This document shows, piece by piece, positions 5,658 through 64,000 of a DNA stretch of 64,000 bases. The notes under the pieces are model-generated. The model saw only the letters and a list, made by a program, of their open reading frames with translations. It had not been told where the DNA came from and searched no databases. Origin of the DNA: a bacterium (lineage in GTDB: Bacteria > Orphanbacterota > Orphanbacteria > Orphanbacterales > Orphanbacteraceae); contig JALGYY010000046.1 of NCBI GenBank assembly GCA_025782575.1, forward strand, positions 372,001-436,000, read 5' to 3'. Numbering within the stretch: the stretch's first letter is position 1; each line of letters begins with the position of its first letter. The translations under genes were made by a program, and so were the position numbers.

Positions 5658-5800
5658 CAACGGTACTTCGGGGGTGGGTGAAATTCCCCGCCGGCGGTTA
5701 TAGTCCGCGACCGGAGTCTCACTCGATCCTGAGTGGAACGCTCCGCTGACCCGGTGAAATTCCGGGACCGACCGTCAAAGTCGGGATGGGAGAAGGCCGA
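5658..5800 (+). ncRNA. FMN riboswitch (RFN element)
   Basis: This leader has the conserved blocks of the FMN aptamer. They are the CTTCGGGG-type P1 entry near 5666, GGGTGAAATTCCCCGCCGGC at about 5676, TAGTCCGCGACC at 5701, a variable arm (CACTCGATCCTGAGTG), CGGTGAAATTCCGGGACCGA at 5752, and GTCAAAGTCGGGATGGGAGA ending in GAAG at 5795. P1 can close as CTTC with GAAG. The element binds FMN and represses the downstream riboflavin genes. An intrinsic terminator about 105 bases downstream indicates transcriptional control. Confidence 0.96.
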
Positions 5801-5905
5801 GCCCGGGACCTGCAGGCAGATCAGTCTGTCCGGCAACAAAGGTCCTCTGCACCCGATTCCGCGACTTCCCATCGGGAGGACCCGGGTGGGTGCCTGCTTG
5901 CCTTG

Positions 5906-9797: not shown

Positions 9798-9838
9798 TGG
9801 TCTCTTCGTCTACGGGGTTACCAGGTGGGTTCTGATTG

Positions 9839-12800: not shown

Positions 12801-12907
12801 ACCATGGAAACTCAGGGCCCTACTCACCGGACGACTATCTGAAGAAACCGTTTCACGCTGTGACCCTGATCCGAACGATTCAGACATTGCTCGAGGACCG
12901 TGCCTGA
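9839..12907 (+). CDS. Membrane hybrid sensor histidine kinase (PAS-GAF-PAS-HisKA-HATPase-receiver)
   Basis: The 1022-residue two-component sensor has an N-terminal membrane helix (about 13-32), a periplasmic segment, and a second helix (about 167-190). The cytoplasmic part has PAS (about 217-335), GAF (about 345-500), PAS (about 507-630), HisKA with His656 in AHEFNNQLMVI, and a HATPase domain with NLVTNAVDAL, DTGGGI and GGRGLGLFVV. It ends in a receiver with phospho-acceptor Asp953 in LLDVTM and Lys in KKPF. All catalytic residues appear present. ATG 9839 follows AGGTGG; TTG 9836 is an alternative. No partner regulator is adjacent, and the input signal cannot be read from the sequence. Confidence 0.9.
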   Translation: MPIPRHSIRRSATLIFFCLLFIVWSVSLIVSGSKESREIRRRSGLIEQIREAQDAHHDLVEWVLLQPDDPPGLSEWEKKEAVLRDAIEAIDLTGYPASPTARFITDGKSCLERASKLRGRGPSDNVAPEQLTRSIIDELHMCIDLLSLSLKEQNEALIAHSLNRSARWIPVATLGCAASILALTTIFLLLAKQRTDLNSEAVKRSLQVGREELVESEARFRAVCETVATAIFIIRGSRIRYANAAAARISGYSRDELLGREFWFNMHPDFKDVVRERGLERQQKGGGPAQYEVAIITKDGQTRWVEYIASTFEMEGELAILGTAYDLTDVRNAQSKLQERSREAESLHRISEIAVGARGFEEAAGEFAKTLTGVSGYRFASIEVYDPQQRTMTLISPTGLDLGGRRIRYEIPISKTLSGLAVDTALPVAVTNASHREENQDELLRAAGFETWISIPMIVREEVVGAITIADRDQLRIEEHLLRWLDSAQNLIAASFERARAERTLRLSEERYRALYDDNPTMFFSVNPDGVIQSVNRFGARQLGYTVEELTGTSVFDLFHPDDLPVLREQIAIAGEHPERLHHWEFRKKTKEGRIMWVREVVRVVSVSTYEREFFIMCEDITAEKATEEERVRLDAQLEYSQKMEGIALLASVIAHEFNNQLMVIMGNADLALLDIPDSSEAREALDQIRETVDAAGEMTKQLLVYAGEPSEESDLLNLSAILEKMDRLLHVAFSKKALLEVEFAGRIAGIRGNDTQMRQIVMNLVTNAVDALDGETGVITIRTGSEELRESRIASFRSRSDRPPGLYTYLEVSDTGGGIRGDEVELIFDPFFSGKKGGRGLGLFVVQEIVEKLGGAIEITSSTEKGTTLRTWFPSTGEWLESAEDSVNPAPAFEMWKGDDTILVVDDEKEIRSVASRILVRAGFHVDQAASGRECMEKVRSKVGRYSAILLDVTMSDLDGLETLGTLRETNPDMKVVLMSGYNEERNHGNSGPYSPDDYLKKPFHAVTLIRTIQTLLEDRA

Positions 12908-39593: not shown

Positions 39594-41958
39594 CTCGGTT
39601 TTCTGGCAGGCGGTCCGTGCTATCGGGATTCTCTCAGTACTCCTGATCGGTCTGGCAGGTGAGAGCGTCGCGCAAGACGAGTGGGAGGCCTTCCTGACCC
39701 AGCGCGATGGACGGGCACTGGCTCGAGACGGCAATTTCATCTGGATCGCCACGAGCGGCGGCGCTCTCAGGTGGGAGGATCTGGGCCGTGATGTGAACGG
39801 CCGGCCGATCGGCGAATTCAGGACGTTCTCCACAGTGGACGGCCTCGCTTCGGTTGATGTGGTTGACATTGCGGTAACGGCAGACGGTGCCAAGTGGTTC
39901 GCCCACGGTGAGGCGGACGCCGGGGTCTCGGTCCTCGAGTCGGACGGCACCTGGCACCCGATCGGCACATTCCAAGGACTCGCACTCGAAGAGGGGAAGC
40001 GGGTCAATACGATCGCCGCATCGAGTGAGTCGGTCTGGGTCGGAACGGAAAGCGGCGCCACTCTCTTTCTTGGCGATCGCCGGGATATCCTGCTCACCCA
40101 GGATGACGACGGGATTCTATCGGACAATGTTCTCGCCATCGCAACGGCCGAGGGATTCGTCTGGCTCGGCACGGACCGGGGGCTTTCCCGGTTCGGCACA
40201 TTCGGCGCTGATAACTTCACGGTAGCCGACAGCCTTCCGAGTAACCGGGTCACTGTGCTCACGTTCGGCCCTGACGGCGCCCTCTGGATCGGTACGAGCA
40301 AGGGCATTGCCATCTACGACAACGGCAGGATCTCGATTCCGGATGGGCTTGGCAATTTGAGCGGTCCGGTAATCCGCGCGATTTCATTCGAGGTTACGGA
40401 AAGCGACACGATCCCCTGGTTCGCTACGAACGAAGGACCTTATCGGGGAAACGAGCTTCTCGAGGATCAGAGGAGCGGCCAGAGTCAGGCTCTGATCCCT
40501 CTGATCGAAGAGACGAACGATCTTCTGGTCGACGAGACCGGTGAGATCTGGTTCGCCCATGGGAATTTCTGGATCTATCACTGGACTCCGCTCGATCAGC
40601 TATGGGACACCCATCGTCTGCCCGGGCTCGTCAGCAACTTCATAGCCGACATAGTCGTCGACCTGAATGGCTTCGTATGGACCGCCAATGCCGAGAATGT
40701 CAGCGGCGGCCCGGATGGGGAACAGAAGGGCCTTCATCTCATGACCCCCGCGGGGTGGACCAACATCGCGACGCCTGTCATCGACTCGAGAGTCCAGACG
40801 ATCGTCGCTTGCGCTGTTGATAGCGTGGGTAACAGGTGGTTTACTTCCCGTCGGGCCACAGAGAGCCCGGGAAGTCTGATCAAGCTCCCCGCATCAGTCA
40901 CCGGGATTCCCCAGGCCGGAGACTTCGAGTACATCCACGTCTCCAATCTATCGACAGGCTTTCAGACCGAACCGGCCTACAATGTTGAAGTCGATGGTGA
41001 GGGTTCTATCTGGGTTCCGGTTACCAAAGAGGGGATCGCGGTTCTCAAGGCGGATGGAATCACATGGGAGAGCTATTCAGATCCCCTCTGTCTCCGTCCC
41101 GAAGATGACTTCGACGGACCTTCCGCTCTCGATGTCACCTTTACGCCTGACGGGCGCGCCTGGGTTGCGCTCGAGCGTAGTTTCTCGACGATCATCGATC
41201 CTGATGATGGCGACTGTTTTAACTGGACGTCCTCCAATTCGACACTCCCTACCGGTGGCCTTCGAACGGTCAGGGCGGACGCCCGAGGCCGGGTCTGGTT
41301 CGGGGCTAATGCCGGGCTCCACATGTTCGATCCGGGCGACTCCACATGGTGGGGCTGGACGGAGGAGTCGACCGATGGACGACTTCCGGGAAATATCATC
41401 CGTGACATCGGCTTCGACAGGCGCGGCAACATATGGGTGGGCACTTTCGGCGGCGGGATCGGCGTACTCTCCCCTGACCTCACGAACTGGTTTGAACCTT
41501 ATCGTGTCCAGACCAACCTCCGCCGAGGGAGCGGCCTGACCAGTGATTTCATAATGGATTTCCATATGAGCGTGAACAGCGAAGGAAAGGACGAAATCTG
41601 GATCGCTACATTCGGTGGTGGTGTCAATCGCGTCGTACCCGATTTTGAAATTACAGGCCCGCCGGGAGGGGGAGCAATCCCTCTCACCCTCGCCTATCCG
41701 AATCCCTATGTTGACGGCGAAGCGGATGCAGAAGGAGTCGCATTCCGTGATACCCCCGCGGGAAGTGTGATCACCATCCATGACCTCTCAGGAAAGCTGA
41801 TCATCGAAATACAAGGTCCCGCATTCGAAGGGGGGGCCGAGCCTCTCTGGGACTTTACCAATTCCTCCCGCGTACCTGTCGCCTCCGGCACCTATCTGTT
41901 TCTCATAAAAAAAGATGGCTCCGTCCTCCAGGATGGCCGGATCGCATACATCCGCTGA
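39583..41958 (+). CDS. Secreted two-component-type beta-propeller protein with FlgD/type IX-like C-terminal domain
   Basis: The 791-residue product has a signal peptide (GILSVLLIGLAGESVAQ) followed by at least nine propeller blades of the Reg_prop kind. Each has a W-I/V-G/A-T-x-G-G core, for example IWIATSGGAL, VWVGTESGATLF, LWIGTSKGIAIYD and IWVGTFGGGIGVL. The C-terminus, from LAYPNPYVDGEADAEG to SGTYLFLIKKDG, is the FlgD-Ig/sorting-type domain seen on surface proteins of FCB bacteria. Unlike classical hybrid sensors it has no membrane helix or kinase, so it is an exported protein. It overlaps the fusion gene by 11 bases and ends the operon. Confidence 0.85.
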   Translation: MKISSVFWQAVRAIGILSVLLIGLAGESVAQDEWEAFLTQRDGRALARDGNFIWIATSGGALRWEDLGRDVNGRPIGEFRTFSTVDGLASVDVVDIAVTADGAKWFAHGEADAGVSVLESDGTWHPIGTFQGLALEEGKRVNTIAASSESVWVGTESGATLFLGDRRDILLTQDDDGILSDNVLAIATAEGFVWLGTDRGLSRFGTFGADNFTVADSLPSNRVTVLTFGPDGALWIGTSKGIAIYDNGRISIPDGLGNLSGPVIRAISFEVTESDTIPWFATNEGPYRGNELLEDQRSGQSQALIPLIEETNDLLVDETGEIWFAHGNFWIYHWTPLDQLWDTHRLPGLVSNFIADIVVDLNGFVWTANAENVSGGPDGEQKGLHLMTPAGWTNIATPVIDSRVQTIVACAVDSVGNRWFTSRRATESPGSLIKLPASVTGIPQAGDFEYIHVSNLSTGFQTEPAYNVEVDGEGSIWVPVTKEGIAVLKADGITWESYSDPLCLRPEDDFDGPSALDVTFTPDGRAWVALERSFSTIIDPDDGDCFNWTSSNSTLPTGGLRTVRADARGRVWFGANAGLHMFDPGDSTWWGWTEESTDGRLPGNIIRDIGFDRRGNIWVGTFGGGIGVLSPDLTNWFEPYRVQTNLRRGSGLTSDFIMDFHMSVNSEGKDEIWIATFGGGVNRVVPDFEITGPPGGGAIPLTLAYPNPYVDGEADAEGVAFRDTPAGSVITIHDLSGKLIIEIQGPAFEGGAEPLWDFTNSSRVPVASGTYLFLIKKDGSVLQDGRIAYIR

Positions 41959-42259
41959 CACGCCCTTCCTTACCCTTCGTCCGCCGCAGATCGCAATCGC
42001 TCAGCGGCGCAATTCGCATCGCCCCCGCTCGTTACAAGATTCGGACACTGTTCCTCTAGTCGATCCTGTTCAAATTCTGACAAATCGGTGCTGTTTTGCT
42101 TTTGAGCAGCCTTCGGTACGGAGATTGCTCAAAAATCGAACGGGCCCGCGCTATCAACAGGTTGTACTTCTTGTCCGTATTCGGATCCTCAAGGGGGGTA
42201 CCGGAAAGAGGTGGGGCGAAGATCATGACAGCATGGAATGTCCGCCCGGGAGGGATGCC
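41959..42259 (+). promoter_or_regulatory. Control region of the sigma-54 activator gene, with a 9-base inverted repeat
   Basis: This 301-base gap carries a perfect inverted repeat: TTTTGAGCA at 42100-42108 and TGCTCAAAA at 42126-42134, separated by 17 bases. No T run follows on either strand in the right place, so it is not a terminator. It looks like a protein-binding site upstream of the regulator gene. I find no convincing promoter; a GG-N9-GC element at about 42086 is one base short of the sigma-54 spacing. The rest holds nothing I recognise. Confidence 0.4.
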
Positions 42260-43702
42260 GTGAAGCAGATTACCATCATCGACCGCCAGCGCGGCTCGAT
42301 GGAAAAACTGGAGAACCAGCTCAGAGGGCGGGGATACGAGGTTCGATCCTTTCGGGACGAGGATGTCGCTCTCAAGGAGATAATCGAGTGCAGTCCTGAT
42401 CTCGTCATTTCCGAACTCGCCCTTCGCCAGATGAAGGGACCTGAGATTCTGCGAGAGATCAAGAAAATCGATTCCAGGATTCCGGTAATCATCATTACGG
42501 AGCACTCCAACACACAGGACGCAATAGACTCGATGCGTGAAGGGGCGTACGACTATTTCGCCAAGCCTCTCGATACTGAAAAAACACTGCAGGCGATCGA
42601 AAAAGCGCTCGACCTTTTTCGGGATGAAGATGCCGAAACTGCTGCGCCCCTCCGTGCCGATCTTCAGGCGGGACAGGGAAACAGTCTCTGTGGCCGGAGC
42701 CCGGAGATGCTGGAAATCTATAAGCGGGTCGGCCAGGTAGCGGCATCCAACGCGGCCGTCCTCATCCAGGGGCAGAGCGGGACAGGTAAGGAGCTGATCG
42801 CCCACGCCATTCATGAGAACAGTGAGAGAAGCAAAGGGCCGTTCCTGGCCGTAAACTGTGCCGCTATCCCCGAAACACTGCTGGAAAGCGAACTGTTCGG
42901 GTATGAGAGGGGTGCATTTACTGGCGCCACGACGAGAAAATTGGGCAAGTTCGAAGCGGCGAGCGGTGGAACGATGTTCCTCGATGAGATCGGCGACATG
43001 AGTCTATCGATCCAGGCGAAGGTCCTGCGGGTTCTCCAGGATAAGGCGTTCGAGCGCCTCGGCGGCCGGGAAACCGTTCGGGCCGATACCCGAATCGTGG
43101 CGGCGACGAACAAGAGCCTCGTCGACTGCATGAAAGCGGGCACCTTCCGGGTCGATCTCTTTTACCGCTTGAAAGTGGTCAGTATCTTTCTCCCACCCCT
43201 TCGCGAACGAGGAGACGACATACTTCTCCTGGCGGACTACTTCGTAAACAAGTACAACTATCAACTCGTGAAGAAAGTACGGGGGATGTCGGCCAAGGCC
43301 GCGGAGATGCTCAGAGACTATGACTGGCCAGGTAATGTCCGAGAACTGGAGAACAATATCCAGACCGCCATTCTCCTGAACCGGACAGGAACACTCTCCT
43401 GTGAGGATTTCCCGCTCCATATGGAACGGCAGGAACACAAATCGCGCCAGGTAGAGGATGCAGCCCCCGGTGAGCTTGCCGCGTCGTTCCGCCAGATTCT
43501 GGAACCCGTATTCGGGACGTTGGCTGTCGATTTCCGGGGAGCCGTATACGACAGGGCCGTACAGGACTTCGAACGGGCACTGCTCGGCCTCGCCCTCGAA
43601 AGGGTGGGTGGAAACCAGGTAAAGGCCTCTAAGCTGCTCGGAATCAGCAGGAATACCCTTCGGAACCGGATCGAACGATTTGGAGGTATGGAAAATCTCT
43701 GA
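42260..43702 (+). CDS. Sigma-54-dependent response regulator with atypical receiver (Asp to Glu)
   Basis: The 480-residue NtrC-type activator has a receiver domain (1-120), an AAA+ domain and a Fis-type helix-turn-helix. The AAA+ part has Walker A GQSGTGKELIAHAI (about 170), the sigma-54 contact GAFTGA (about 217), Walker B GTMFLDEIGDM and RVLQDKAFERLGG. The C-terminus has QVKASKLLGISRNTLRNRI. In the receiver the usual LLD phosphorylation site reads ISELAL, placing Glu52 where Asp should be, and the first acidic pair reads ID-R. Thr and the KP lysine are kept. It may be active without phosphorylation. I chose GTG 42260 with GGGAGGGA upstream; the frame is open further back. Confidence 0.9.
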   Translation: MKQITIIDRQRGSMEKLENQLRGRGYEVRSFRDEDVALKEIIECSPDLVISELALRQMKGPEILREIKKIDSRIPVIIITEHSNTQDAIDSMREGAYDYFAKPLDTEKTLQAIEKALDLFRDEDAETAAPLRADLQAGQGNSLCGRSPEMLEIYKRVGQVAASNAAVLIQGQSGTGKELIAHAIHENSERSKGPFLAVNCAAIPETLLESELFGYERGAFTGATTRKLGKFEAASGGTMFLDEIGDMSLSIQAKVLRVLQDKAFERLGGRETVRADTRIVAATNKSLVDCMKAGTFRVDLFYRLKVVSIFLPPLRERGDDILLLADYFVNKYNYQLVKKVRGMSAKAAEMLRDYDWPGNVRELENNIQTAILLNRTGTLSCEDFPLHMERQEHKSRQVEDAAPGELAASFRQILEPVFGTLAVDFRGAVYDRAVQDFERALLGLALERVGGNQVKASKLLGISRNTLRNRIERFGGMENL

Positions 43703-43841: not shown

Positions 43842-44810
43842 ATGAAACGACTTTCAATCGGGCTGATACTTGCATTCAGTCTCTTCGCGGCCCATGCCGC
43901 GCTCGCCCAGGAATCTGCAGTGAGGGCGTATACGATCGGCGTGGGAGATCGCCTCAGGGTATCTGTCTGGCAGGAACCGACACTCGACCGGAGCGTGGAA
44001 GTGGGCGTCGACAGCCTGATCGTTCTCCCTCTGGTGGGACCGATCAAGGCGGCCGGCTACTCGCCCGCTCAACTTTCCCGGACACTCACCGAGAAGTACT
44101 CCCTCTATAAGCGTGACATCTCTCAGGTCGAGGTTGTGGTGGCTGAATACAACAGCCGGGAGATCTACGTGATCGGCGAGATTTCGAACCGTGGTCGCTA
44201 CACGTTTCAAGTGATACCTGATTTATGGACCGTGATCATGCAGGCAGGCGGACCGACTCAGGCGGCCTATCTCGGAGAAGTTCGTATTCTTCGAGGCACC
44301 GGTTCAGAAGAGAAATCCATTCGTGTGAACCTGAACGACTTCCTCCTGGGCGGGGATGCGTCCTATCTTCCACGGCTCCAGCCGGGCGATACGGTATACA
44401 TCCCCGCGTCCACCAATCGTGGCGTAGACGCTTTCGCTACAAGCGTGGTCTATGTCTACGGCGAAGTGAGAAGTCCCGGCCTCTATCTCATCGGCCAGGA
44501 AGAGGATCTGGTGGGAGCGATTCTGACTGCGGGCGGATTGTCGTTGAATGCCGATCCCAAGCGGATTCGCATCATTCGCAAAGAGGGGGAACGACGGGTT
44601 GTGAACGAGGTCAACCTGAAAGACTATCTCGAGAAGGGGGAGATCTACGCCAACCCACTCCTCCGGCCGGGCGACACGATTGAAGTGGTCGAGCGGCGAT
44701 CGAGCGGAGTCAGGCGGTTTTTCTCGGAGCTGATTCAGCCATCGTTCTCTACCATTACTCAGACGCTGAGTCTGATTCTGATCATCGACCGGATATCGGA
44801 TACGAACTAA
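43842..44810 (+). CDS. Wza-like outer-membrane polysaccharide export protein
   Basis: The 322-residue product has a signal peptide (LILAFSLFAAHAALAQ), then the polysaccharide export domain (YTIGVGDRLRVSVWQEP, VDSLIVLPLVGPIKAAG). Two SLBB beta-grasp domains follow, including VYVYGEVRSPGLYLIG and the final RPGDTIEVVERRSSG. It ends in an amphipathic helix, TITQTLSLILIIDR. There is no lipobox cysteine, unlike E. coli Wza. The start is ATG 43842, immediately before the signal peptide; the frame upstream has no coding character. It forms the outer exit channel with the Wzz/kinase pair downstream. Confidence 0.92.
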   Translation: MKRLSIGLILAFSLFAAHAALAQESAVRAYTIGVGDRLRVSVWQEPTLDRSVEVGVDSLIVLPLVGPIKAAGYSPAQLSRTLTEKYSLYKRDISQVEVVVAEYNSREIYVIGEISNRGRYTFQVIPDLWTVIMQAGGPTQAAYLGEVRILRGTGSEEKSIRVNLNDFLLGGDASYLPRLQPGDTVYIPASTNRGVDAFATSVVYVYGEVRSPGLYLIGQEEDLVGAILTAGGLSLNADPKRIRIIRKEGERRVVNEVNLKDYLEKGEIYANPLLRPGDTIEVVERRSSGVRRFFSELIQPSFSTITQTLSLILIIDRISDTN

Positions 44811-44828
44811 ACGGGAACTATCGATCTG

Positions 44829-46523
44829 ATGCATGACCTCAGAAAATCACTCGATCCTCGAATGATCGGCGAAATGATCCTCGCGCGGAAGTGGTGGCTT
44901 ATCGTCCCTCTCCTCGTGACAATCGGTACGTCGATCTACATCATCGAGAATATGGACGAGGTCTATCGCGTATCGACTTCGCTCCTCTATGAGGCTCGCT
45001 CGCCGTTGACCCGTCAGATCGAGGGCAAACTTCTTCCCGACGCACAGCAACTCGGCCGTGCGCGTCCCCAGGAGGCGGAGGCGAAAGCGAATGTGCTTCG
45101 TCTCAAGATCTTGTCGCAGCCTTTCCTCACCGAAATCGGTCGAGACCTCGGCCTGATGGATCAGGAGTGGCGATACCAGATGGCGGAGGAGCGCAAGGCG
45201 GAAACAGGTGATCCCACACCGATCGATAAAATGGTAGAGGAATCCGTGGCCGGCTGGCTCGGCGGAATGATTACGATCAACATCAGCGGCGGAAACATAT
45301 ACCGGATTACAACGGAGGGGACCAACCTCCGATTGATATTCGATCTTGCGAACAATATCACAGAGAAGATCTCCGAGGTGATTCAGGGAGATGAGATCGA
45401 CCGAATCGATGCGGCGTCTCGATTCACGAAACAGCAGGTTGCTATCTATCGAAGCCGATCCGCCCAGGCGAAAGCGAGTCTCCAGACTTTTCTTATCAAG
45501 CAACCGGCACCCGGAAGTGAGGGTTCCCGGCCCGTAGACGTGGATCAGCGTGCCGCCGCCCGTCTCGCCGAGGAGACAGGCTTTGAGATCAGAAGGCTGA
45601 GCGAAGCCCTCGAAGAGGCCCGCTCGACCCTTTCCAATTCGTACGCCCTCAGCCTCGCCAGTTTCATGGCGGAACTGCCGAACGCGCTCATTCTTCTCGA
45701 GGAGCAGCTTAAGTCGCTCGAGAAACAGCTAGGCTATCTTCTTCTCGAGCGGAGCTGGAGCGACCCGACGGTGATTACGCAGAACCGGCGAATCGGGGAG
45801 ACAAGAATCGAAATGACCAGCCTCGTACGGCAACATGTCGCCGCGAGCCTGGCAAGCCGATCGAGCACAGTGCGGGACCTTGTTGCAAACGGTGCCCGCG
45901 ATCAGATTCTACTTCGTACTCTGGACATCCGGCGAAATACATTGGCGGAACAATCTGTCGGCGCCGTAGGTGAGGGGGGGGCCGAGTACCTCCGAAACGA
46001 AGAAGAGTTGCGGTACCTTCAGGAGCAAGTTCGGATTAACGAAGATCTACTTCAGTCGTTTCTCAATCACGCCGCAGCCGCTCAGATTACGGAGGCGATC
46101 GAGAAGGATGAACAGATTCAAAGGGTTCGCATCCTGACCCCGGCCAAGTGGGCTGCCAAACCTGTTCTCCCCAATAAACCTCAGAACTACGCAGTGGCCA
46201 TTCTGCTCGGTATTGCCCTCGGCAGCGGATTCATGATTCTGAGGGAGTATCTCGATACGTCGATTCGAGACGTACACGAAGCCGAGGAGCTGATGGGCGC
46301 ACCGATTCTGGGAACGATTCCACGAATCGACTTTTCCTATATGCCGGCTCACCGGGGGGGGGTCAGGAAGAGCCTGATCTTTACCGTGCTGGGAGTAATC
46401 GTCCTCGGCGCCGCATTCGGTTACTACTTCTACTTTATGGATCATGAACCGGTGTCAAAAGGTGAAGCGGAGCCGACCGCATGGGTTGGTTCACAGGCTG
46501 ACCAGAACAGACGACTCGGGTAG
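44829..46523 (+). CDS. Wzz/Wzc-type chain-length determinant with an extra C-terminal membrane helix
   Basis: The 564-residue inner-membrane protein has an N-terminal helix (WWLIVPLLVTIGTSIYII), a long periplasmic coiled-coil region, and a second helix (NYAVAILLGIALGSGFMIL) preceded by the proline-rich AAKPVLPNKPQN. The usual kinase linker comes next (DVHEAEELMGAPILGTIPRI). Instead of the kinase domain there is a third hydrophobic segment (SLIFTVLGVIVLGAAFGYY) and a short polar tail. The kinase is the next gene. It controls polymer length and gates export in partnership with the kinase. Confidence 0.9.
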   Translation: MHDLRKSLDPRMIGEMILARKWWLIVPLLVTIGTSIYIIENMDEVYRVSTSLLYEARSPLTRQIEGKLLPDAQQLGRARPQEAEAKANVLRLKILSQPFLTEIGRDLGLMDQEWRYQMAEERKAETGDPTPIDKMVEESVAGWLGGMITINISGGNIYRITTEGTNLRLIFDLANNITEKISEVIQGDEIDRIDAASRFTKQQVAIYRSRSAQAKASLQTFLIKQPAPGSEGSRPVDVDQRAAARLAEETGFEIRRLSEALEEARSTLSNSYALSLASFMAELPNALILLEEQLKSLEKQLGYLLLERSWSDPTVITQNRRIGETRIEMTSLVRQHVAASLASRSSTVRDLVANGARDQILLRTLDIRRNTLAEQSVGAVGEGGAEYLRNEEELRYLQEQVRINEDLLQSFLNHAAAAQITEAIEKDEQIQRVRILTPAKWAAKPVLPNKPQNYAVAILLGIALGSGFMILREYLDTSIRDVHEAEELMGAPILGTIPRIDFSYMPAHRGGVRKSLIFTVLGVIVLGAAFGYYFYFMDHEPVSKGEAEPTAWVGSQADQNRRLG

Positions 46524-46526
46524 GGG

Positions 46527-47216
46527 ATGACCACCATGCAGCGACCGAAGACCAATATCGTCGGCCTCTATGATCCGGAAACTCCGATGGCGATCGAATT
46601 TCGACGTCTCTACTCTCGTCTGCAATACAAGCAGAACGGAAAACCCAACTCGCCACTACTCATTACGAGTGCCAGTCACGGAGAAGGGAAGACGACGACG
46701 GCGGGCTTTCTCGCGCTTACCATAGCCCGCCAGTCTGATAAGCGCGTTCTCCTCGTTGACTTCGATCTCCATCGTCCACGAATTCACACTCTTTTCGGGA
46801 TTCCGCTCCGTGACGGCGCCTCCGAATTAATTCAAGGGGTGGCCACGCTCGAGAGTGTCGTCAAGGATTCGGGAAATCCCAATGTCTCCGTTCTGACTGC
46901 CGGCACCATGGTTCGCAGCCCCGCTTCCCTTTTCGAACCGGAGAGTATCAAGCGGGTGATCGGGCAAATGAGCGCCGCATACGATCTCGTCATCATCGAC
47001 TCACCACCCCTCCTGCCTGTGAGCGATACGATGGTTCTCGCACCTCTTGCCGAGGCCGTTCTCTTCATCGTGATGGCAGGAAAGACTCCGCGGGATGTTG
47101 TTTCACGGGGCCGGGGCCTGCTGGAGGACGTGAATGCGAACCTGGTGGGGGTGGTCTTGAACAATTCGAGGGGGGTCCTTCCCTATTACTACAACTACAA
47201 GTACTACGGATATTAA
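46527..47216 (+). CDS. Bacterial tyrosine kinase (CpsD/CapB type)
   Basis: The 229-residue kinase has Walker A SASHGEGKTTTAGFLA, the A' motif VLLVDFDLHRP and Walker B LVIIDSPPLLP. It ends in a tyrosine cluster YYYNYKYYGY with seven tyrosines in ten residues, the autophosphorylation tail of BY-kinases. It is separate from its membrane activator (44829), as in Gram-positive systems, although the rest of the cluster is Gram-negative. The start is ATG 46527, three bases after the previous stop; ATG 46536 is possible. Confidence 0.93.
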   Translation: MTTMQRPKTNIVGLYDPETPMAIEFRRLYSRLQYKQNGKPNSPLLITSASHGEGKTTTAGFLALTIARQSDKRVLLVDFDLHRPRIHTLFGIPLRDGASELIQGVATLESVVKDSGNPNVSVLTAGTMVRSPASLFEPESIKRVIGQMSAAYDLVIIDSPPLLPVSDTMVLAPLAEAVLFIVMAGKTPRDVVSRGRGLLEDVNANLVGVVLNNSRGVLPYYYNYKYYGY

Positions 47217-48165: not shown

Positions 48166-49123
48166 CTCTGCGATCAAGCTGTCGATTTTCGTTTACGTTC
48201 CGTTTGATCCCGAAGGGCTCAGCCCCCTTTTTCATACGATACAAGAGGCGCTCGGCGCGCGAGCGGATTACGAAATACTCATTCTCGACGATGGCACAGG
48301 CTTAGGTCGACAGTTGATCCCGAGCGGACATGATCTCTCGATTCCCATACGAGTTGTCCACTTCGGCAAGAAATTCGGAGAGTCGGTCGCTGTCGATGCC
48401 GCCCTCCAGCTGACCACAGGCGAGGCTATACTGACGCTTCCCGGCGTTCGACCCGTTTCGATAGAGGATATCACCCGTTTACTCGAAGGCCTCGAGCGGG
48501 GCACCGATCTCGTAATCGGGTATCGTACGGAAAAGATGACGGGCCCCCTCGATCAGGTGCAGGTGAGAGCGTTCTACTGGCTCACGGAGAGGGCGACCGG
48601 GACGAGCTTCCGCGACCTTTCGAGCGGGGTGCGTGCATTTCGACGCGAAGTATCCGAAGAGATCGCGCTTTATGGGGAGATGATACGGTTCTTGCCGATC
48701 CTCGCGGTAGGGAGGGGGTACCTGGTAGAAGAGATCGATCTTCGACCGCCAGAAACCGGATCCGAAGATCAAGTGAAACATCCGAAGGCGAAGCCCGAAT
48801 TCTTGAGCCCCGTGGTCTATCTGAACCGCCTGCTCGACGTGCTGACACTCTTCTTTTTACTACGCTTCACAAGAAAACCACTCCGGTTCTTCGGATCCCT
48901 CGGCGCCATGCTCCTGATCCCGGGGCTCGCGATCGACATCTTTCTCTTTGTCCAGCGCCTGTTCATAAACGATCCGCTCGCCGGGCGCCCGGTCCTTCTG
49001 CTCGGGATCCTTTTAACCGTTCTGGGAGTGCAGACCGTATCGATCGGCCTCATCGGAGAGATGATCATATTCACCCACTCACGGGAAATCAGGGACTATT
49101 CCATTCGGGAAGTACTGGAATGA
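48158..49123 (+). CDS. GT2-like protein lacking the DXD motif (probable pseudo-glycosyltransferase)
   Basis: The 321-residue product has the GtrB-like layout, including the DLSSGVRAFRREVSEEI region and two C-terminal helices. The nucleotide-sugar site is lost: where relatives read MDADLQDDP this protein reads LPGVRPVSIED (residues 94-104). The HXXRXGXSKYG motif is replaced by unrelated sequence near EDQVKHPKAKPEFL. LDDGTG partly keeps the first acidic motif. It overlaps the preceding active GT2 by 8 bases, so a regulatory or structural partner role is plausible. ATG 48158 follows GGAGGGG. Confidence 0.8.
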   Translation: MSDSAIKLSIFVYVPFDPEGLSPLFHTIQEALGARADYEILILDDGTGLGRQLIPSGHDLSIPIRVVHFGKKFGESVAVDAALQLTTGEAILTLPGVRPVSIEDITRLLEGLERGTDLVIGYRTEKMTGPLDQVQVRAFYWLTERATGTSFRDLSSGVRAFRREVSEEIALYGEMIRFLPILAVGRGYLVEEIDLRPPETGSEDQVKHPKAKPEFLSPVVYLNRLLDVLTLFFLLRFTRKPLRFFGSLGAMLLIPGLAIDIFLFVQRLFINDPLAGRPVLLLGILLTVLGVQTVSIGLIGEMIIFTHSREIRDYSIREVLE

Positions 49124-50145
49124 AGGTCGAGCTGCTCCCGGTAGACGGCACTGTCGAGTGGAACGACTATGTCGAAAAACATTCGGAGAGCCTTCTTGGC
49201 CACCGCGGGGAGTGGTCACGGATCCTGAGCCGAACGTTGGGCCAGGAACCGATCTATCTTGTGGCAAGGGAAGACGGAATCCTTCAAGGGATACTCCCGC
49301 TGGCGCTCGTCGAAGGGCTCGTCGGGGGACGGGCACTCGTGTCTCTTCCCTGGCTCGATGCGGCCGGTGTCCTGGCTGATTCCACTGAAGTCGCCGCCGC
49401 TCTGATCGATCGGGCACGTGAGACGGCGCGCGATCGGAACTGCACCTATCTCGAAATACGGGCGCTCCGGAAATATGATTCTCCCCGGCCCGTTCGCAGT
49501 TCCAAGGTGCTCCTGCATCTGGACCTCGACTCCCCGGATGCCATGTGGAAAGCGTTCTCCGCCAAAGTGAGAAATCAGATCCGAAAAGCCGAGAAAGAGG
49601 GGCTCACAGCCTCAGTCGTCGGAGAGAACGGCCTGTCCGATTTTTACCGGGTCTTTTCTCGAAATATGAGGGATATCGGCGTACCTGTCTGGGGGATGAA
49701 CTTTTTTCAGGAGATCATGGCGACTTTCGGCGAGCGCGCCCGGCTGGTCATCGTTCGAGACAGGAAGGAACCCGTGGGTGCGGGGCTTCTGCTTACTCAC
49801 GACGGGACAGCAATCGTTCCGAGCGCCTCTTCCCTCCGAAGCCACTTCAAACAATGTCCGAATCACCTTCTTTACTGGACGGCGATTCAAGAAGCGGCTG
49901 AGAGGGGGGCGACTGTTTTCGACTTCGGGCGATCGACACCGAACAGCGGGACCTGGCGATTCAAGAAGCAGTGGGGGAGCAGGGAGGTTCCCTGCTACTG
50001 GCACTATGATCTCTTGCGGATCAATGAACCTCCGGAGAGAAACACGCAGAGCAAAAAACTCCGCTTCGCTGTAGAGACATGGAAACGGCTGCCACTCCAG
50101 GTAGCGAACCGACTGGGACCGCTCCTGGTACGGAGGATTCCATGA
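49120..50145 (+). CDS. FemAB-like acyltransferase, exosortase/EPS-locus type
   Basis: The 341-residue product has the double-GNAT fold signature of FemAB-like proteins: KVRNQIRKAEKEGL in the first half and HLLYWTAIQEAAERGATVF with DFGRSTPNSGTWRFKKQWGS in the second. Proteins of this kind recur in polysaccharide loci linked to PEP-CTERM/exosortase systems. Their exact substrate is unknown; an aminoacyl or acyl transfer to sugar or peptide is the family expectation. The start overlaps the pseudo-GT2 stop as ATGA. No exosortase gene is visible in this window. Confidence 0.78.
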   Translation: MKVELLPVDGTVEWNDYVEKHSESLLGHRGEWSRILSRTLGQEPIYLVAREDGILQGILPLALVEGLVGGRALVSLPWLDAAGVLADSTEVAAALIDRARETARDRNCTYLEIRALRKYDSPRPVRSSKVLLHLDLDSPDAMWKAFSAKVRNQIRKAEKEGLTASVVGENGLSDFYRVFSRNMRDIGVPVWGMNFFQEIMATFGERARLVIVRDRKEPVGAGLLLTHDGTAIVPSASSLRSHFKQCPNHLLYWTAIQEAAERGATVFDFGRSTPNSGTWRFKKQWGSREVPCYWHYDLLRINEPPERNTQSKKLRFAVETWKRLPLQVANRLGPLLVRRIP

Positions 50146-58224: not shown

Positions 58225-59460
58225 CTAAGTTGCCTTACGGCGAATCGTTTCGCTGATCAGTCCTTCTATTCTGAGGACGACCCGATTCCAGTCATGCCTC
58301 CGCGCAACTGACATTCGCTCTTCCCGATCCGAATCGGAGGCCTCTTCGAGCGAGGCGGCGATGGCATCCCGCCACGCCGCGCTGTCGGTCGCGACACGAA
58401 CAAGGAGCTCGAATTCATCGAGACACGGGAGGGGGACCGAGACGACCGGCTTCCCGGCTGCCAGGTACTCATGAAGTTTCAACGGATAACGTTGCTTGGT
58501 GTCCTCGGAAACGAGGTAGGGGAGAAGCGCCACATCGAAAGCGTTCAGATAATTGGGGACATCGGCCATCCGTTTGTTCCCGATCAGATGAACATTGGGG
58601 AGAGCGGCCCATTCTTCGTAGGTCTTCCGATGGGGGCCGAAGGCGACATAGGAGGGACCGACAAAACAGAACGCGCACTTCGGCAGCGACTCCGCGACTT
58701 CCTTGAGGAGCGGAAAGTCGAGTTTGTCGCAGATACGGCCGAGATAGCCGGCACGGGGATGGGGGATGCCGCTCAGGTCGAAGGGCTCCCGCGTCCCGAT
58801 ACCCGGGATTCGCGAAAAGTGATCGAAGTCGACCCCGTTCGGGACGAAATGAACATTCCGGCCTTCCTTGCGCTTGGAACGCTCCAGAAGTTCGGATGCA
58901 CAAAGCACCAGATCGGCCTGATCGAGTAATGCGTTCTCCTCGATCCCCAGTTTTTCCCGGTTCGCCCCTCTGTACCCGGAGTATTCATCGAGAACATGGT
59001 AGATCACCATTTTCTCGCCGAGTCTGCCGACAGAGTCTCCCATTCTCGGGTGGAGCAGATAGAGAATCGGCGATGTCCCCCCGATTTTGCGAAGGGCACG
59101 CCTGAGGCCTCGAAACCGCATTGATTCCATGGCACCTGCAATAGCGGCCGGCCGATAAAGACGGGGCTGCCATCGCGGGAACTGGTAGACATACAGGTGA
59201 TCCTTCAAGTGATTCATCCCGTCTGGCCGGTGCTTCCCTGAGAATCGCGAACCGAGTACTTCAGTTCTCTCAAAAGGAGGAGGGACGTAGATCACACGAT
59301 TTCGAAAAGCCAGCCGGCGGAGTACCTGATTCCAGGTCTGCTGGTTCGTATCCCAATCTGTCCAGCCGAAACAGACGATCGTCTCTCCCCTCAGCCTGAG
59401 AACGGAAGGGTCGAACCGCGCAGGTATCTTCTTGTCCCAGGCGATCGTGGCCACACTCAT
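58225..59460 (-). CDS. GT-B glycosyltransferase (TuaH-like)
   Basis: The 411-residue product has ETIVCFGWTDWDTNQQTWN and NRVIYVPPPFERTEVLG at the N-terminus. A central YHVLDEYSGYRG resembles the D-x-D/E-Y-S-G element of TuaH-like enzymes. The donor half has AGYLGRICDKLDFPLLKEV and LLPYLVSEDTKQRYPLKLHE, then YLAAGKPVVSVPLPCLDEF. TuaH-like transferases act in surface-polymer synthesis. The start overlaps the stop of the preceding gene as ATGA. A 7-base gap separates it from the next gene in the operon. Confidence 0.85.
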   Translation of the reverse strand: MSVATIAWDKKIPARFDPSVLRLRGETIVCFGWTDWDTNQQTWNQVLRRLAFRNRVIYVPPPFERTEVLGSRFSGKHRPDGMNHLKDHLYVYQFPRWQPRLYRPAAIAGAMESMRFRGLRRALRKIGGTSPILYLLHPRMGDSVGRLGEKMVIYHVLDEYSGYRGANREKLGIEENALLDQADLVLCASELLERSKRKEGRNVHFVPNGVDFDHFSRIPGIGTREPFDLSGIPHPRAGYLGRICDKLDFPLLKEVAESLPKCAFCFVGPSYVAFGPHRKTYEEWAALPNVHLIGNKRMADVPNYLNAFDVALLPYLVSEDTKQRYPLKLHEYLAAGKPVVSVPLPCLDEFELLVRVATDSAAWRDAIAASLEEASDSDREERMSVARRHDWNRVVLRIEGLISETIRRKAT

Positions 59461-60773
59461 GAAAGCGCCTTATTCAATACGGCTGTTAATTCACCGGTCA
59501 GATTGCGAAAGTCGAAACGCTCGGGCAGGGAAGGCGCCGGAACTCCCTTGCCTCTCAGTGCATCGAGTAAAATCCGCTCGATCTCTTCTTCATCATCAGG
59601 ATCGGCGATCCGCCCGAGAGATTCGCTACGGATCAGATTCTCCGTTGCACCCGGTGTTACGAGCGCGAAAATCGGCCGGCCGATCGATAGATATTCAAAA
59701 AGCTTGCGTGGAATCTGAAGAGTCGTGCCTGCCTGGATGAGCAGAAGGAGATCGCTGTTCACCAGTTGTCTGAGCGCCTCCTGACGGGGAACGGGCGGGC
59801 TGATCCGAACCATGTCGGCCACCGGCGATGAGGCGAGCCTATCGGGGAAAGAGGACCCACCCTCCATGACGCCCAGAAGATTCAATTCCATATCCCCCTT
59901 CTTCATCAATCCTTTTTTGTAGAGACTCTCCATCCCTCTTAGGATCGGCGTCGCGTCCCGTTGGCCATAGATAGTTCCTGCATGAGTCAGTCGGATAGGC
60001 CGTTTTACTGACGATGATTCGTGCGGGACCGGCATGATCTCCTCACCGTCGAATCCATTGGTCAAAGTGCTGAATTTGTCCGCAAGCGACGGGTATCGAG
60101 ACTGAAAATCGTCTCGCAGTTCATCCGTGTTCGCGATGACACCTGCGGCCCCCTCTATCACCCGTTTCTCGAGCCAGCTGTCCACAGGATCCAGGTAGGT
60201 GGTCTGGCGTTCAGTCAGAAATTGGTTCGATACCCAGGGATCGCGAAAATCGGCCACCCAGGGCCTTCCCGAATAGCGGGAGGCGAGAAGCGCTGCCAGA
60301 TGGGAACTCGCCGGCGGGGAGGAGGAGTAAATCGCATCAATCCCCTCCCGGTCGATCAGTTCCGCCGCTTTCCTTGCTGCTGGCAGGATCCAGCCCGCCT
60401 GCCGGTCGGGAAGAGAGAAGAGATCGGTCACCCAGTCCCGCCAGCCCGGCCCATGGCCGGCCGATTTCGCTTCCGGCTTCCCGTTTCCTCCGCCTAACGG
60501 CTGGGAAACGGTCTGTCTCAGATGGTTCCTGAGTCCGAGAGCCATCTGCAGCGGCTCCAATACCCGCGCTCGCTCGACTACTACTTCTGGTGAGAGAATG
60601 CGAAGAGGCTCCGCATCGAGAGGCCCGGGAGAATGAACTGTAGAGGTGCGGATTGTCAGGACCACAGGCATCCAGCCGTGTTGAGGGAGATAGCGGGCAA
60701 ACTGCAGGGAGCGAAACATCCCGCTGGTGGACAGAGGGGGAAAATTGTAGACAATCATCAGCAGTTTGCGCAT
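59457..60773 (-). CDS. Glycosyltransferase family 4
   Basis: The 438-residue product starts MRKLLMIVYNFPPLSTSGMF, typical of WbuB-like GT4 proteins. It contains YSSSPPASSHLAALLASRYS, WVADFRDPWVSNQFLTERQT and the donor-site stretch PRKLFEYLSIGRPIFALVTP. I chose ATG 60773 because it begins directly at the conserved first strand; the frame is open to 60914 without family character. It is the first gene of the leftward trio and faces the fibronectin-protein gene across 430 bases. Substrate not predictable. Confidence 0.88.
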   Translation of the reverse strand: MRKLLMIVYNFPPLSTSGMFRSLQFARYLPQHGWMPVVLTIRTSTVHSPGPLDAEPLRILSPEVVVERARVLEPLQMALGLRNHLRQTVSQPLGGGNGKPEAKSAGHGPGWRDWVTDLFSLPDRQAGWILPAARKAAELIDREGIDAIYSSSPPASSHLAALLASRYSGRPWVADFRDPWVSNQFLTERQTTYLDPVDSWLEKRVIEGAAGVIANTDELRDDFQSRYPSLADKFSTLTNGFDGEEIMPVPHESSSVKRPIRLTHAGTIYGQRDATPILRGMESLYKKGLMKKGDMELNLLGVMEGGSSFPDRLASSPVADMVRISPPVPRQEALRQLVNSDLLLLIQAGTTLQIPRKLFEYLSIGRPIFALVTPGATENLIRSESLGRIADPDDEEEIERILLDALRGKGVPAPSLPERFDFRNLTGELTAVLNKALS

Positions 60774-61054
60774 TGTGTCCCGTGTTCGCCTGTTAGATGG
60801 CCTTCTTAATACTAGCATCGACATTTTAGCCGGTTTTCCGAAGGTGCCGATGAAAAACAGTAGAGACGGATAACGTGGTAAGGGAGATGGGATTGTGTGG
60901 GGTGTACTGTGCAACTTCCCAACACATGTTCAATCTGTTATCATGTTTTCCAGAGTGTTGGGTGTCGGGATGGGCGGATTTTCCCCACTGCCTTGGAAAC
61001 CACTGAGACTCAACGTGTTACGATGTTTAATTTTGCCCTCCTTGGATGAGGGCG
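60774..61054. promoter_or_regulatory. Divergent intergenic region with an 8-base inverted repeat
   Basis: The gap before the sigma-54 promoter is less G+C-rich than its neighbours. CCCAACAC at 60918-60925 and GTGTTGGG at 60955-60962 form a perfect inverted repeat with a 29-base gap. The repeat is 93 to 138 bases upstream of the -24 element, a normal distance for a sigma-54 activator site. For the leftward operon only weak -10 candidates are seen (complement of ATTTTA near 60824). No gene is recognisable here. Confidence 0.4.
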
Positions 61055-61070
61055 CGGCATGTCTTTTGCA
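61055..61070 (+). promoter_or_regulatory. Sigma-54 (RpoN) -24/-12 promoter
   Basis: The sequence CGGCATGTCTTTTGCA matches the consensus TGGCAYG-N4-TTGCW at every conserved base except the first T. The invariant GG (61056-61057) and GC (61068-61069) are exactly 10 bases apart. Transcription would start near 61081, giving a leader of about 123 bases to ATG 61204. A sigma-54 activator is encoded at 42260 in this window. Confidence 0.75.
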
Positions 61071-61126
61071 CATCCACGGCTCGGTCGATACGTGGAAGGA
61101 ACCAGCCGCGCACGCGAGGAGGGCCA

Positions 61127-61191
61127 GTCCATGACATGCATCCCTGTGCGGGGCTTTCGGTGCGGTTGTAGCCGGGATCGGGATTTTGGAC
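61127..61191 (+). other. Potential structured mRNA leader (nested stems)
   Basis: Three stems nest within 65 bases. GTCCA (61127-61131) pairs with TGGAC (61187-61191), ATCCC (61140-61144) with GGGAT (61174-61178), and GGCT (61152-61155) with AGCC (61170-61173). A second GGGAT at 61180-61184 offers an alternative partner for ATCCC. The structure ends 12 bases before the start codon, so it could affect ribosome access. It does not match the GEMM c-di-GMP, FMN or other aptamers I know. Confidence 0.35.
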
Positions 61192-61203
61192 ATATTTAAA
61201 TCG

Positions 61204-64000
61204 ATGAAATGGGCGAAGCACGTCCTTCTCTACCTCGGCGTGTGCTTTATCCTCTCGTCCGCTACGGCGGAGGCCGGACAGGTATCTCTGGCATGGACGG
61301 CGCCTTCGGAAAACAGCACCGGCGGAACCGTGCTCGGCTATGACCTGCGCTACAGCAGTACGCCGGTCAGCAGCGATACGCTCGGTTGGTGGGGAAACGC
61401 GAGTCAGGCGGCGGGAGAACCATCTCCGGCGAGCCCCGGTGCGACCGAGTCCCAGGTTGTAGGCGGGCTGACTCCCAGCGTTTCCTATACCTTTCTGATC
61501 CGTTCGTTTGATGAAGCCGGGAACGTTTCCCCCTTCTCCAATGTGCTCGTATCTACAATCACGGATACATCGGATACCACCTCGACACCTGATACGACTG
61601 CCGTCGTCATTTCCGGGATTACTGTTGAGGGACTCGGATCGATGAGTGCCCGGATCTCATGGCAGACTAATATTGATACATACGGATTCCTTCGATATGG
61701 ACCGACGGCGTCTTACGGTTCGGCCTCTTCGATCGAAGGCCCCTCTTCAGTTCATTCGATTCTGATCACCGGACTCTCATCCGGCCAGACTTACCACTAC
61801 CAATCTGTCTCCTATGTGGATTCGAGACGAGACTCCTCTTTAGACGGTACATTCACCACGTTGACCGATGAAGATGGGCCGCCTGCCCCGCCCCAGGGCG
61901 TCACTGCATCCAACGGACCCGGCTTCGTCGGGATCGGCTGGAACGGTCCCGCTGAATCGGATATCGCGAACTTCAACGCATACTGGACAGAGTGGCCCCG
62001 CGATAGTTCTACGGTACTCGCCGGCGAAAACTTCGAGGGTGTCGCGGTGGGTGGTGATCCCCCGGAGTGGCGAACCTCACAGTTCTTCAGCGTGGTAGAC
62101 CTCCCCGGTCACGGAAAGGTCTGGCAAGGTGACCCGGTCGGTGGCGCGTATCAGGCACATTACCGCCCGGTAGAAGAGCAGATTCAGGACATGGGTGACC
62201 TGGAGTTCACGGGAAACCTCATGCTTACACCCAGCGCTATCGCCGGCCTTGTGGTCCGCAGGGAACACGGACCGAAATACTATCAGTTTGAATTCTCAGG
62301 ATCCGATCCTCTTCATATCGTAGGTTTCGGAGTCCCGGTCACTACGGTTTATACGGAAGACTTCACTCCACTCTATAATGTCTGGTACTCGTATCGCGTT
62401 CGATCGTGGACGGAAGGGAGCGAAGTACTTCTCGCCTGCTCCATGTGGCCGGAGGGCGAATCGGAGCCGCCGGGATGGCAAATCATAGCCAGGGGATCAG
62501 GCTCTTCCCCCAGTTTGACCGGTACGGTCGGAATCTTCATCTTCGGGTGGAGCGAAACGTATTTTGATGATTTCGAAGTACGGAAGCTCCCGCCATCGAG
62601 CAGTAGAGTTGATCGGGCACTTTTCAGCTCGTGGATTCACCAGGGGCTCTCGAGCAATTCGACTTATCACTACTGGGTAGAGGCGGTTGACCAGGCGGGT
62701 AACCGGAGTAAGCTGAGTAATGTCGCTTCAGGGAACCCCCAATTTCTCGACGAGAGTGATCAGACTCCGCCCGCAGCCATTACGGATCTGGCTGCGATAC
62801 CGGGAGGAGCACTCGGGGCAGCCCAGTTGACATGGACTGCAACGGGAGACGACGGCGGTACCGGAACGGCAACTTCCTACAGTGTAAAGTACTCCTCTTC
62901 ACCGATCGATGAGCAGGGATGGAATGGAGCGACCACAGTCAACTCCGGCGTCCCCAAACCCGCAGGGCAATCCGAGTCGCTCACCGTAGTCGGTCTGAGT
63001 GCAGGCGAGACTTACTACTTCGCCGTCCGGGCGCTCGACGAGGCGGGCAATGAGTCGCCGGTGTCGAACAGCCCGGGTACCACCCTCCTGGCGGACACCG
63101 AGAGCCCCGTGCTATCGGGCATCGGCGCCTCCTCCATCCAGCAGACATCGGCACTGATCCACTGGACGACGGACGAACCGACCACCGCAAGTGTGAATTA
63201 CGGCCTGACCCCCGAGTATGAGCTGGGCACAGTTGTTCGTACTTCCCTAGCAACAGTCCACAGCCTCTCACTTTCCAATCTGCAGCCTGAGACTGTCTAT
63301 CATTACAAAATCACATCCAGTGACGGCGCAGGAAATTCCACCTCCTCCGCCGATCACAGTTTTATCACCGCATCGGAAACCGATTCTTCCGTGCTCTCGA
63401 TCTCTTCGGTTACCGTCCAATCCGTTTCTGATACCGATGCTGTGATCGTCTTCAGTACATCTGTCACCGCTGACGGCTTCGTCGACTACGGACTGGGCAC
63501 TACCTATCCCAACACCGTTGAGGGAGACGACCCCGTGATTAATCATGTGATTCGACTCTCCCCACTGGTTCCCGGTGAGCTTTACCATTTCCAGGCGAGG
63601 GCCACATTGCCGGGTGGGGGAGAGGAGACGGTATCGGGCGACCACATATTGATCGCTAAATCCGGTGCGGGGGCCGACACTACCGCGCCTGTCATAATCG
63701 ATGTGGCTCTTGGGACGCCCACGTCGACCAGAATATTCATCAGCTGGACTACCGACGAGAACGCGCTCGGTAAAATCGAATATGGTCTATCCAGCAGCTA
63801 TGGGCTTTCCGCCTCACCCGGCAATGAGTACAGCAAGGACCACTCCGGTCTCCTCGAGGGGTTGACGCCCGGCACCTCGTTCCATTTTCGAATTGTGGCA
63901 ACAGACTTTCATGAGAACATCGCACTCTCCGGTGATTTTGAATTCGCCACCGAGGATGACACGACGATCGTTGATCTGGTTGGTCCGATCGTTTCGAGTC
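61204..64000 (+). CDS. Large secreted fibronectin type III repeat protein, 3' end beyond window
   Basis: The frame stays open from ATG 61204 to the window edge, giving at least 932 residues. A signal peptide comes first (LLYLGVCFILSSATAEA). FN3 or purple-acid-phosphatase-N-like beta-sandwich domains follow: FN3 at about 25-120, PAP-N-like at 135-220, FN3 at 222-505, FN3 at 520-632, then PAP-N-like units at about 633-725, 726-820 and 821-915, with an eighth beginning. Each PAP-N-like unit has an I-S-W-x-T strand, an x-Y-G turn and a YHY/FHF strand. The third FN3 is interrupted at about 275-465 by a jelly-roll/LamG-like insert starting ENFEGVAVGG and ending YFDDFEVRK. The protein is probably surface-exposed; any C-terminal anchor lies outside the window. 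Confidence 0.88.
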   Translation, partial: MKWAKHVLLYLGVCFILSSATAEAGQVSLAWTAPSENSTGGTVLGYDLRYSSTPVSSDTLGWWGNASQAAGEPSPASPGATESQVVGGLTPSVSYTFLIRSFDEAGNVSPFSNVLVSTITDTSDTTSTPDTTAVVISGITVEGLGSMSARISWQTNIDTYGFLRYGPTASYGSASSIEGPSSVHSILITGLSSGQTYHYQSVSYVDSRRDSSLDGTFTTLTDEDGPPAPPQGVTASNGPGFVGIGWNGPAESDIANFNAYWTEWPRDSSTVLAGENFEGVAVGGDPPEWRTSQFFSVVDLPGHGKVWQGDPVGGAYQAHYRPVEEQIQDMGDLEFTGNLMLTPSAIAGLVVRREHGPKYYQFEFSGSDPLHIVGFGVPVTTVYTEDFTPLYNVWYSYRVRSWTEGSEVLLACSMWPEGESEPPGWQIIARGSGSSPSLTGTVGIFIFGWSETYFDDFEVRKLPPSSSRVDRALFSSWIHQGLSSNSTYHYWVEAVDQAGNRSKLSNVASGNPQFLDESDQTPPAAITDLAAIPGGALGAAQLTWTATGDDGGTGTATSYSVKYSSSPIDEQGWNGATTVNSGVPKPAGQSESLTVVGLSAGETYYFAVRALDEAGNESPVSNSPGTTLLADTESPVLSGIGASSIQQTSALIHWTTDEPTTASVNYGLTPEYELGTVVRTSLATVHSLSLSNLQPETVYHYKITSSDGAGNSTSSADHSFITASETDSSVLSISSVTVQSVSDTDAVIVFSTSVTADGFVDYGLGTTYPNTVEGDDPVINHVIRLSPLVPGELYHFQARATLPGGGEETVSGDHILIAKSGAGADTTAPVIIDVALGTPTSTRIFISWTTDENALGKIEYGLSSSYGLSASPGNEYSKDHSGLLEGLTPGTSFHFRIVATDFHENIALSGDFEFATEDDTTIVDLVGPIVSS

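Follow-up and report, generated by a model that had tools for sequence, protein, structure and literature searches.

Sigma-54 activator control of surface protein genes tied to exopolysaccharide loci has been described for the exosortase systems of Proteobacteria. Sigma-54 control of PEP-CTERM genes by PrsK/PrsR is described in Haft 2006 (PMC1569441), and the Aquincola pepA gene is presented as RpoN1-dependent, with a mapped transcription start (PMC9850573). Two other systems combine related pieces. In Vibrio cholerae, VpsR, a relative of the enhancer-binding proteins, is described as switching on the VPS polysaccharide genes together with RbmA, a secreted FN3 matrix protein which is built of tandem FnIII domains and binds the VPS polymer (PMC9561665, PMC5605196). 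For Burkholderia cenocepacia, the BerB/RpoN/Bep system, as set out in PMC5552954, pairs a GAFTGA enhancer-binding protein encoded near polysaccharide genes with RpoN and an upstream site.

The locus presented here resembles each of these systems in part. The window, i.e., the whole stretch of 64,000 nucleotides analysed, belongs to a genome of 4.88 Mb, 95% complete (G000), and our comparison set was made of seven genomes of the phylum, all from one family (G000 to G006). Like PrsK/PrsR as described in PMC1569441, the locus combines exopolysaccharide genes with an enhancer-binding protein of the response-regulator type, and has an upstream motif with a −24/−12 element in a long intergenic region before a secreted protein gene. 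The resemblance ends there, and the exosortase link drawn by an earlier note on this DNA found no support: no PF09721 (exosortase) match was found in G000 at E ≤ 0.001, no PEP-CTERM family matched the tail of the FN3 protein, no histidine kinase that could stand for PrsK was found among the scanned neighbours of the activator, and the activator reached 394.7 bits with the PrsR model TIGR02915, whose cut-off of 502.6 was passed by no activator in G000. The upstream motif is also another one, no TTTACA being seen in 60780–61055, and the gap of 111–139 bp that separates it from the element is longer than the spacer of Haft 2006 (PMC1569441), which averages 62.8. The Vibrio cholerae system comes close in its combination of regulator, polysaccharide genes and FN3 protein; unlike what we propose here, VpsR is described as working without RpoN (PMC5552954). 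BerB, in turn, differs from our activator in that an input domain is missing from its N-terminus, it is a c-di-GMP binder and its action goes through BerA, and the description in PMC5552954 includes no matrix protein target. In the open-licence literature searched, no description of the combination seen here was found. As a separate observation, the window encodes at 49120–50145 an XrtA/PEP-CTERM-type FemAB protein scoring above its cut-off (322 vs. 260 bits), in a genome without an exosortase match.

The FN3 Gene and Its Sigma-54 Element

The gene for the FN3-repeat secreted protein lies on the + strand, from 61204 past the window end at 64000 to contig position 438354; it has orthologs in all seven genomes, and its full-length product counts 1717 aa. 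RbmA, which is similar by its description as an FN3 protein, is far smaller. The C-terminal domain of the FN3 protein is type IX-like, with a TIGR04183 match of 20.1 bits that falls under the cut-off of 23, and the SprA translocon is over its cut-off in all seven genomes. The protein is thus presumably located at the surface, as suggested by a sub-cut-off tail match and the presence of SprA. Such SprA systems are familiar chiefly from Bacteroidota. In this family, a sigma-54 element (TGGCAYG-N4-TTGC) precedes sprA itself in each of the six genomes where upstream sequence is available, at contig 21:304224-304239 (L062:1501) in G000 and at L197, L198, L199, L200 and L202 in the others, G006 being left out due to a contig end. 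On the other side of the intergenic region stands a divergent glycosyltransferase gene (59457–60818, − strand), which adjoins the FN3 gene in G000, G001, G002 and G005, another gene being found between them in G003 and G004.

The candidate promoter, CGGCATGTCTTTTGCA, occupies 61055–61070 on the + strand of this intergenic region. Its spacing is exactly that announced by the earlier note, with GG at 61056–61057, ten nucleotides, and GC at 61068–61069. The single consensus mismatch claimed for it depends on the consensus chosen: there is one against TGGCAYG-N4-TTGCW (C for T at −26), and there are two against the stricter TGGCACG-N4-TTGC (C in place of T at −26, and T in place of C within CAC). 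Transcription is predicted to start at 61081, and the ORF beginning downstream at ATG 61204 does carry a signal peptide, recognised by eye, as had been stated. Within the 64-kb window, this is the sole site with at most one mismatch to TGGCAYGNNNNTTGCW; when two mismatches are allowed, nine sites are observed vs. 9.15 expected from shuffled sequences. The count of sites by itself is therefore uninformative on whether 61055–61070 is real, and what lifts this site above chance is its placement and its conservation.

Conservation was assessed by looking upstream of each FN3 ortholog for a GG-N10-GC element differing from TGGCAYRNNNNTTGCW at no more than two positions. Such an element, with C at −26, is present in five of the seven genomes; it reads CGG in every case and lies 100–138 bp ahead of the start codon used. 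Dinucleotide shuffling, repeated for 2000 rounds, never gave more than two sequences with such an element. The two genomes in which none was found before the FN3 gene, G002 and G005, belong to one genus. We also searched the 521 bp around the leader (60780–61300) for a riboswitch or other known RNA, a candidate we rejected as no Rfam match was obtained at E ≤ 1. Elsewhere in the window, an FMN riboswitch (5659–5801, 98 bits) lies upstream of riboflavin synthesis genes.

Sigma-54 Sites across the Genome

The sigma factor on which the promoter proposed in the earlier note would depend is present: G000 has one rpoN (209 bits, over cut-off), and rpoN is found in all seven genomes. About 27 proteins of G000 are strong matches to the sigma-54 activator model. 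At the scale of the genome, the pattern with at most one mismatch occurs 59 times, vs. 61 for a reversed-pattern control, and it is again placement that is informative. We called a site promoter-placed when a gene start follows within 250 bp and no coding sequence overlaps the site; this is the case for 32 of the 59 sites, against a baseline of 6.5%, which bears out the predicted enrichment of the element in promoter positions, and alternative thresholds of the gene finder gave 28 and 31. One has to keep in mind that these placement counts come from a home-made gene finder trained on the window, which starts the FN3 gene at 61330 and so labels the 61055 site intergenic and not promoter. All five perfect sites are promoter-placed, and the genes behind them include, in our reading, a flagellar rod protein, a FliA-like sigma factor and a type IV pilin. 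Given this enrichment and the placement of the perfect sites, the promoter-placed sigma-54 sites of G000 are mostly real.

The C at −26 called for a closer look. Exact YGGYAYR-N4-TTGC sites number 49 in G000, 24 with T at this position and 25 with C; 18 of the former are promoter-placed, vs. five of the latter, 14 of which lie inside coding DNA. As a class, C(−26) sites are mostly chance occurrences and, with only five of 25 promoter-placed, an individual C site needs evidence of its own. CGG sites are found close behind activator genes other than this one in G001, G003, G004 and G006, and one promoter reads TGG in G000 (L002) and CGG in its apparent G001 ortholog (L137; orthology judged by eye), which suggests that a C at −26 may be functional in this phylum. 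The product at L002 (G000 contig 2:85977) and L137 (G001 contig 69:43210) is a small secreted protein, lipoprotein-like in G000, whose gene adjoins a bEBP gene and has a sigma-54 element.

The consensus match at 61055 could of course be a functionless chance resemblance, as site counts sit at chance level in both window and genome, and as its C at −26 departs from the consensus and puts it in a class found mostly in coding DNA. Five of seven genomes conserve the element, however, where 2000 rounds of shuffling reached two sequences at most, and we regard a chance resemblance as hardly credible. Hence, 61055–61070 is very probably a real sigma-54 promoter.

The Activator Gene and Its Predicted Promoter

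The earlier note was right in that a sigma-54 activator is encoded in the window: model matches and alignment identify the bEBP of the polysaccharide locus at 42260–43702 on the + strand, with orthologs in all seven genomes. The listed start is 41915; the first ~107 residues are unmatched in the relatives, the conserved reading beginning at GTG 42260, which is probably the true start. The protein has the domains of the NtrC family, i.e., a receiver, an AAA+ sigma-54 interaction domain with GAFTGA and a Fis-type HTH. The phosphoacceptor Asp of the receiver is replaced by Glu in all six aligned orthologs, and the proteins of the polysaccharide locus scanned from 18295 on gave no match to a histidine kinase family, the nearest histidine kinase found being at 9836–12907. 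We infer that this activator is not switched by phosphorylation and that its D-to-E receiver would work without it. Glu pseudo-receivers are described as common, and the proposal that they are always on as disproved in some cases (PMC12632262); the D54E form of the NtrC-like NmpR is reported to behave as active (PMC6211767). Our activator shares with the pseudo-receivers of PMC12632262 the receiver fold with D-to-E and the conserved Lys; constant activity is a debated matter in that source.

Ahead of this gene stands a sigma-54-like element, CGGTACGGAGATTGCT (42114–42129, + strand), the only other exact YGGYAYRNNNNTTGC (YGGYAYR-N4-TTGC) site in the window. Upstream sequence is available for six genomes, G000 counted and G005 left out because of a contig end, and in each of them a CGG-type counterpart precedes the activator gene; it reads CGGTAC in five genomes and CGGAAC in G002, and always ends in TTGCT. 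The polysaccharide export, chain-length and autokinase-like genes that follow (43842–47216, + strand) are, judging by spacing and strand, probably on one transcript with the activator gene. In the three genomes where one contig holds both (G000, G002 and G003), the activator and FN3 genes share a strand and are separated by 18–23 kb. The stretch 39583–41958, immediately upstream of the activator, encodes a two-component-regulator-propeller protein, PorZ-like (87.3 bits; cut-off 260), the tail of which looks, by eye, like a type IX sorting domain.

A Palindrome Shared by Both Promoters

We then compiled ten upstream regions, corresponding to five genera and two promoters each, and searched them de novo, by expectation maximisation, for a palindrome of 17 bp. 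One such palindrome, TGtTCa-N5-tGAaCA, was recovered in all ten, with a score of 50.9 vs. a null mean of 29.8 (sd 2.7, maximum 37.7) for 100 shuffled sets given equal starts. Upstream of the FN3 gene it corresponds to TGTGCAACTTCCCAACA, 17 bp at 60908–60924, 130 bp before the element; across genomes it begins 128–156 bp upstream of the element, the anchors of G002 and G005 being placed by position as the element is absent there. The sigma-54 promoter of the FN3 gene thus has a predicted enhancer-like upstream site. Beside the activator promoter the palindrome is TGTTTTGCTTTTGAGCA (42092–42108) and begins 22 bp upstream of the element (31 bp in G003). Two further palindrome-like sites outside the training set of the matrix occur there: TGTTCAAATTCTGACAA (42067–42083, score 11.8) and TGCTCAAAAATCGAACG (42126–42142, score 12.4), the latter sharing bases with the end of the −12 region. 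Only 42092, 42126 and 60908 score at least 12 in the window, a ranking that is partly circular for 42092 and 60908, which are among the ten sites used to build the matrix.

Two tests are independent of this circularity. In the first, a palindromic matrix built from the activator sites alone recovered the same FN3 sites, against 0 of 500 shuffles; a non-palindromic activator matrix was equalled by 2 of 500 shuffles and missed the G005 FN3 site. Single scores were low in G001 (6.5) and G005 (6.7). The reverse check, FN3 matrix on activator regions, is not independent, the FN3 sites having been taken from the joint model. The second test was carried out outside the training sample. Among the 49 G000 sites, one more high scorer was the promoter of a TPR lipoprotein gene (L203:193-1986, − strand, G000 contig 13), with a palindrome score of 15.9. 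Orthologs of this gene exist in six of the seven genomes, G000 included, and retain a sigma-54 element in which no more than two positions deviate; three other genera were represented by one genome each, and there the palindrome was found before the ortholog, against 0 of 2000. The TPR lipoprotein is probably a third member of the regulon. The sprA promoters, taken as a negative control, had no palindrome (best score 3.9). Being present at the TPR lipoprotein and absent at sprA, the palindrome appears to mark a small regulon and not every sigma-54 promoter.

These results also allowed us to reconsider the inverted repeat CCCAACAC/GTGTTGGG (60918–60962), named earlier as a site for the activator. 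Its left arm (60918–60925) overlaps the conserved site 60908–60924 and to that extent pointed at the right place; its right arm has no counterpart by eye in the sequences of the relatives, and the pair is one of 11 inverted pairs in its stretch, so the repeat as a whole was rejected as an operator.

The same stretch contains a match to a distal housekeeping promoter, TTCCCA-17-TATCAT (60916–60944), from which the FN3 gene could mainly be transcribed, the sigma-54 element being then minor or conditional. It is of the extended −10 type, with TG before the second hexamer; a similar sequence is seen by eye at about the same distance in G001, G002 and G005, two of which (G002 and G005) are without the sigma-54 element. 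On the other hand, G003, G004 and G006 keep the sigma-54 element and have no clear counterpart of the distal promoter by eye, and the match, which is only 9/12, overlaps the palindrome, so that its conservation can be put down to the latter. We find predominant transcription from this distal promoter quite improbable, and retain the sigma-54 element as the promoter of the FN3 gene.

Probable Co-Regulation of Polysaccharide and FN3 Genes

Since the palindrome and the element type are common to both promoters, the polysaccharide operon and the FN3 gene are quite likely co-regulated via a shared regulator; the co-regulation of polymer synthesis and FN3 protein put forward in the earlier note is thus strongly suggested. 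The two elements, the palindrome, their conservation and the domains of the activator can be read directly in the sequences, and the mechanism that we propose to connect them is as follows. The 61055–61070 element would be the working sigma-54 promoter of the giant FN3 protein gene; an enhancer-binding protein would bind the palindrome at 60908–60924 and, through DNA looping, remodel the sigma-54 RNA polymerase at 61055. The same regulator would bind the palindrome copies around the 42114 element, and the 42114 promoter would transcribe the enhancer-binding protein gene and the export genes behind it. This regulator is most likely the 42260–43702 protein, acting on its own promoter; bound at the distant site it would activate, whereas at the sites next to its own promoter it may act to limit its own expression. 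As one regulator would act on both promoters, polymer export and the secreted FN3 protein would be made together, and the FN3 protein could bind or display the polymer, the binding being our own suggestion. Several points speak against this model: the element is absent at the FN3 gene in G002 and G005, C(−26) sites are as a class mostly chance occurrences, the total number of sites is no higher than for the reversed pattern, the cross-check weakens with a non-palindromic matrix, and the distance of 22 bp between palindrome and element at the activator is unusual for an enhancer.

It may also be that the sigma-54 promoter is a true one and the palindrome is bound by another regulator, be it another of the ~27 enhancer-binding proteins or a repressor, in which case the activator of the locus would not control the FN3 gene. 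The sheer number of strong activator-model matches in G000 (about 27) lends this reading some weight, as does the position of the palindrome, 22 bp from the element of the activator, which would suit a repressor too. However, every genome with sequence upstream of the activator gene has the palindrome at that gene's promoter, and the activator and FN3 genes are parts of one locus, so a nearby self-regulator is the simplest reading. We consider another regulator unlikely, and presume that it is the locus activator that binds the palindrome; the whole model, with the 42260–43702 protein as the shared regulator, is in our opinion likely.

A broader picture can be sketched, with less than even confidence. 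There may be a phylum-wide surface-coat regulon, independent of a sensor kinase, run by a phosphomimetic D-to-E activator that feeds back on itself via palindromes flanking and overlapping its −24/−12 element; its targets would be polysaccharide export, the TPR lipoprotein and the FN3 protein as a giant coat protein, and sigma-54 would also drive the SprA that would export the FN3 protein. Such a regulon would be a functional counterpart of exosortase/PrsR, with another sorting route and another switch.

Conclusions

The analysis leaves us with a concrete predicted binding site and a few candidate targets, and gives a hint of function for the giant FN3 protein, otherwise an anonymous repeat protein. 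A logic similar to that of the exosortase systems appears here in a little-sampled phylum, with a type IX-like protein tail and no exosortase found in G000. This suggests that the pairing of a polymer with a coat protein under sigma-54 either evolved repeatedly or has an origin older than either sorting route.
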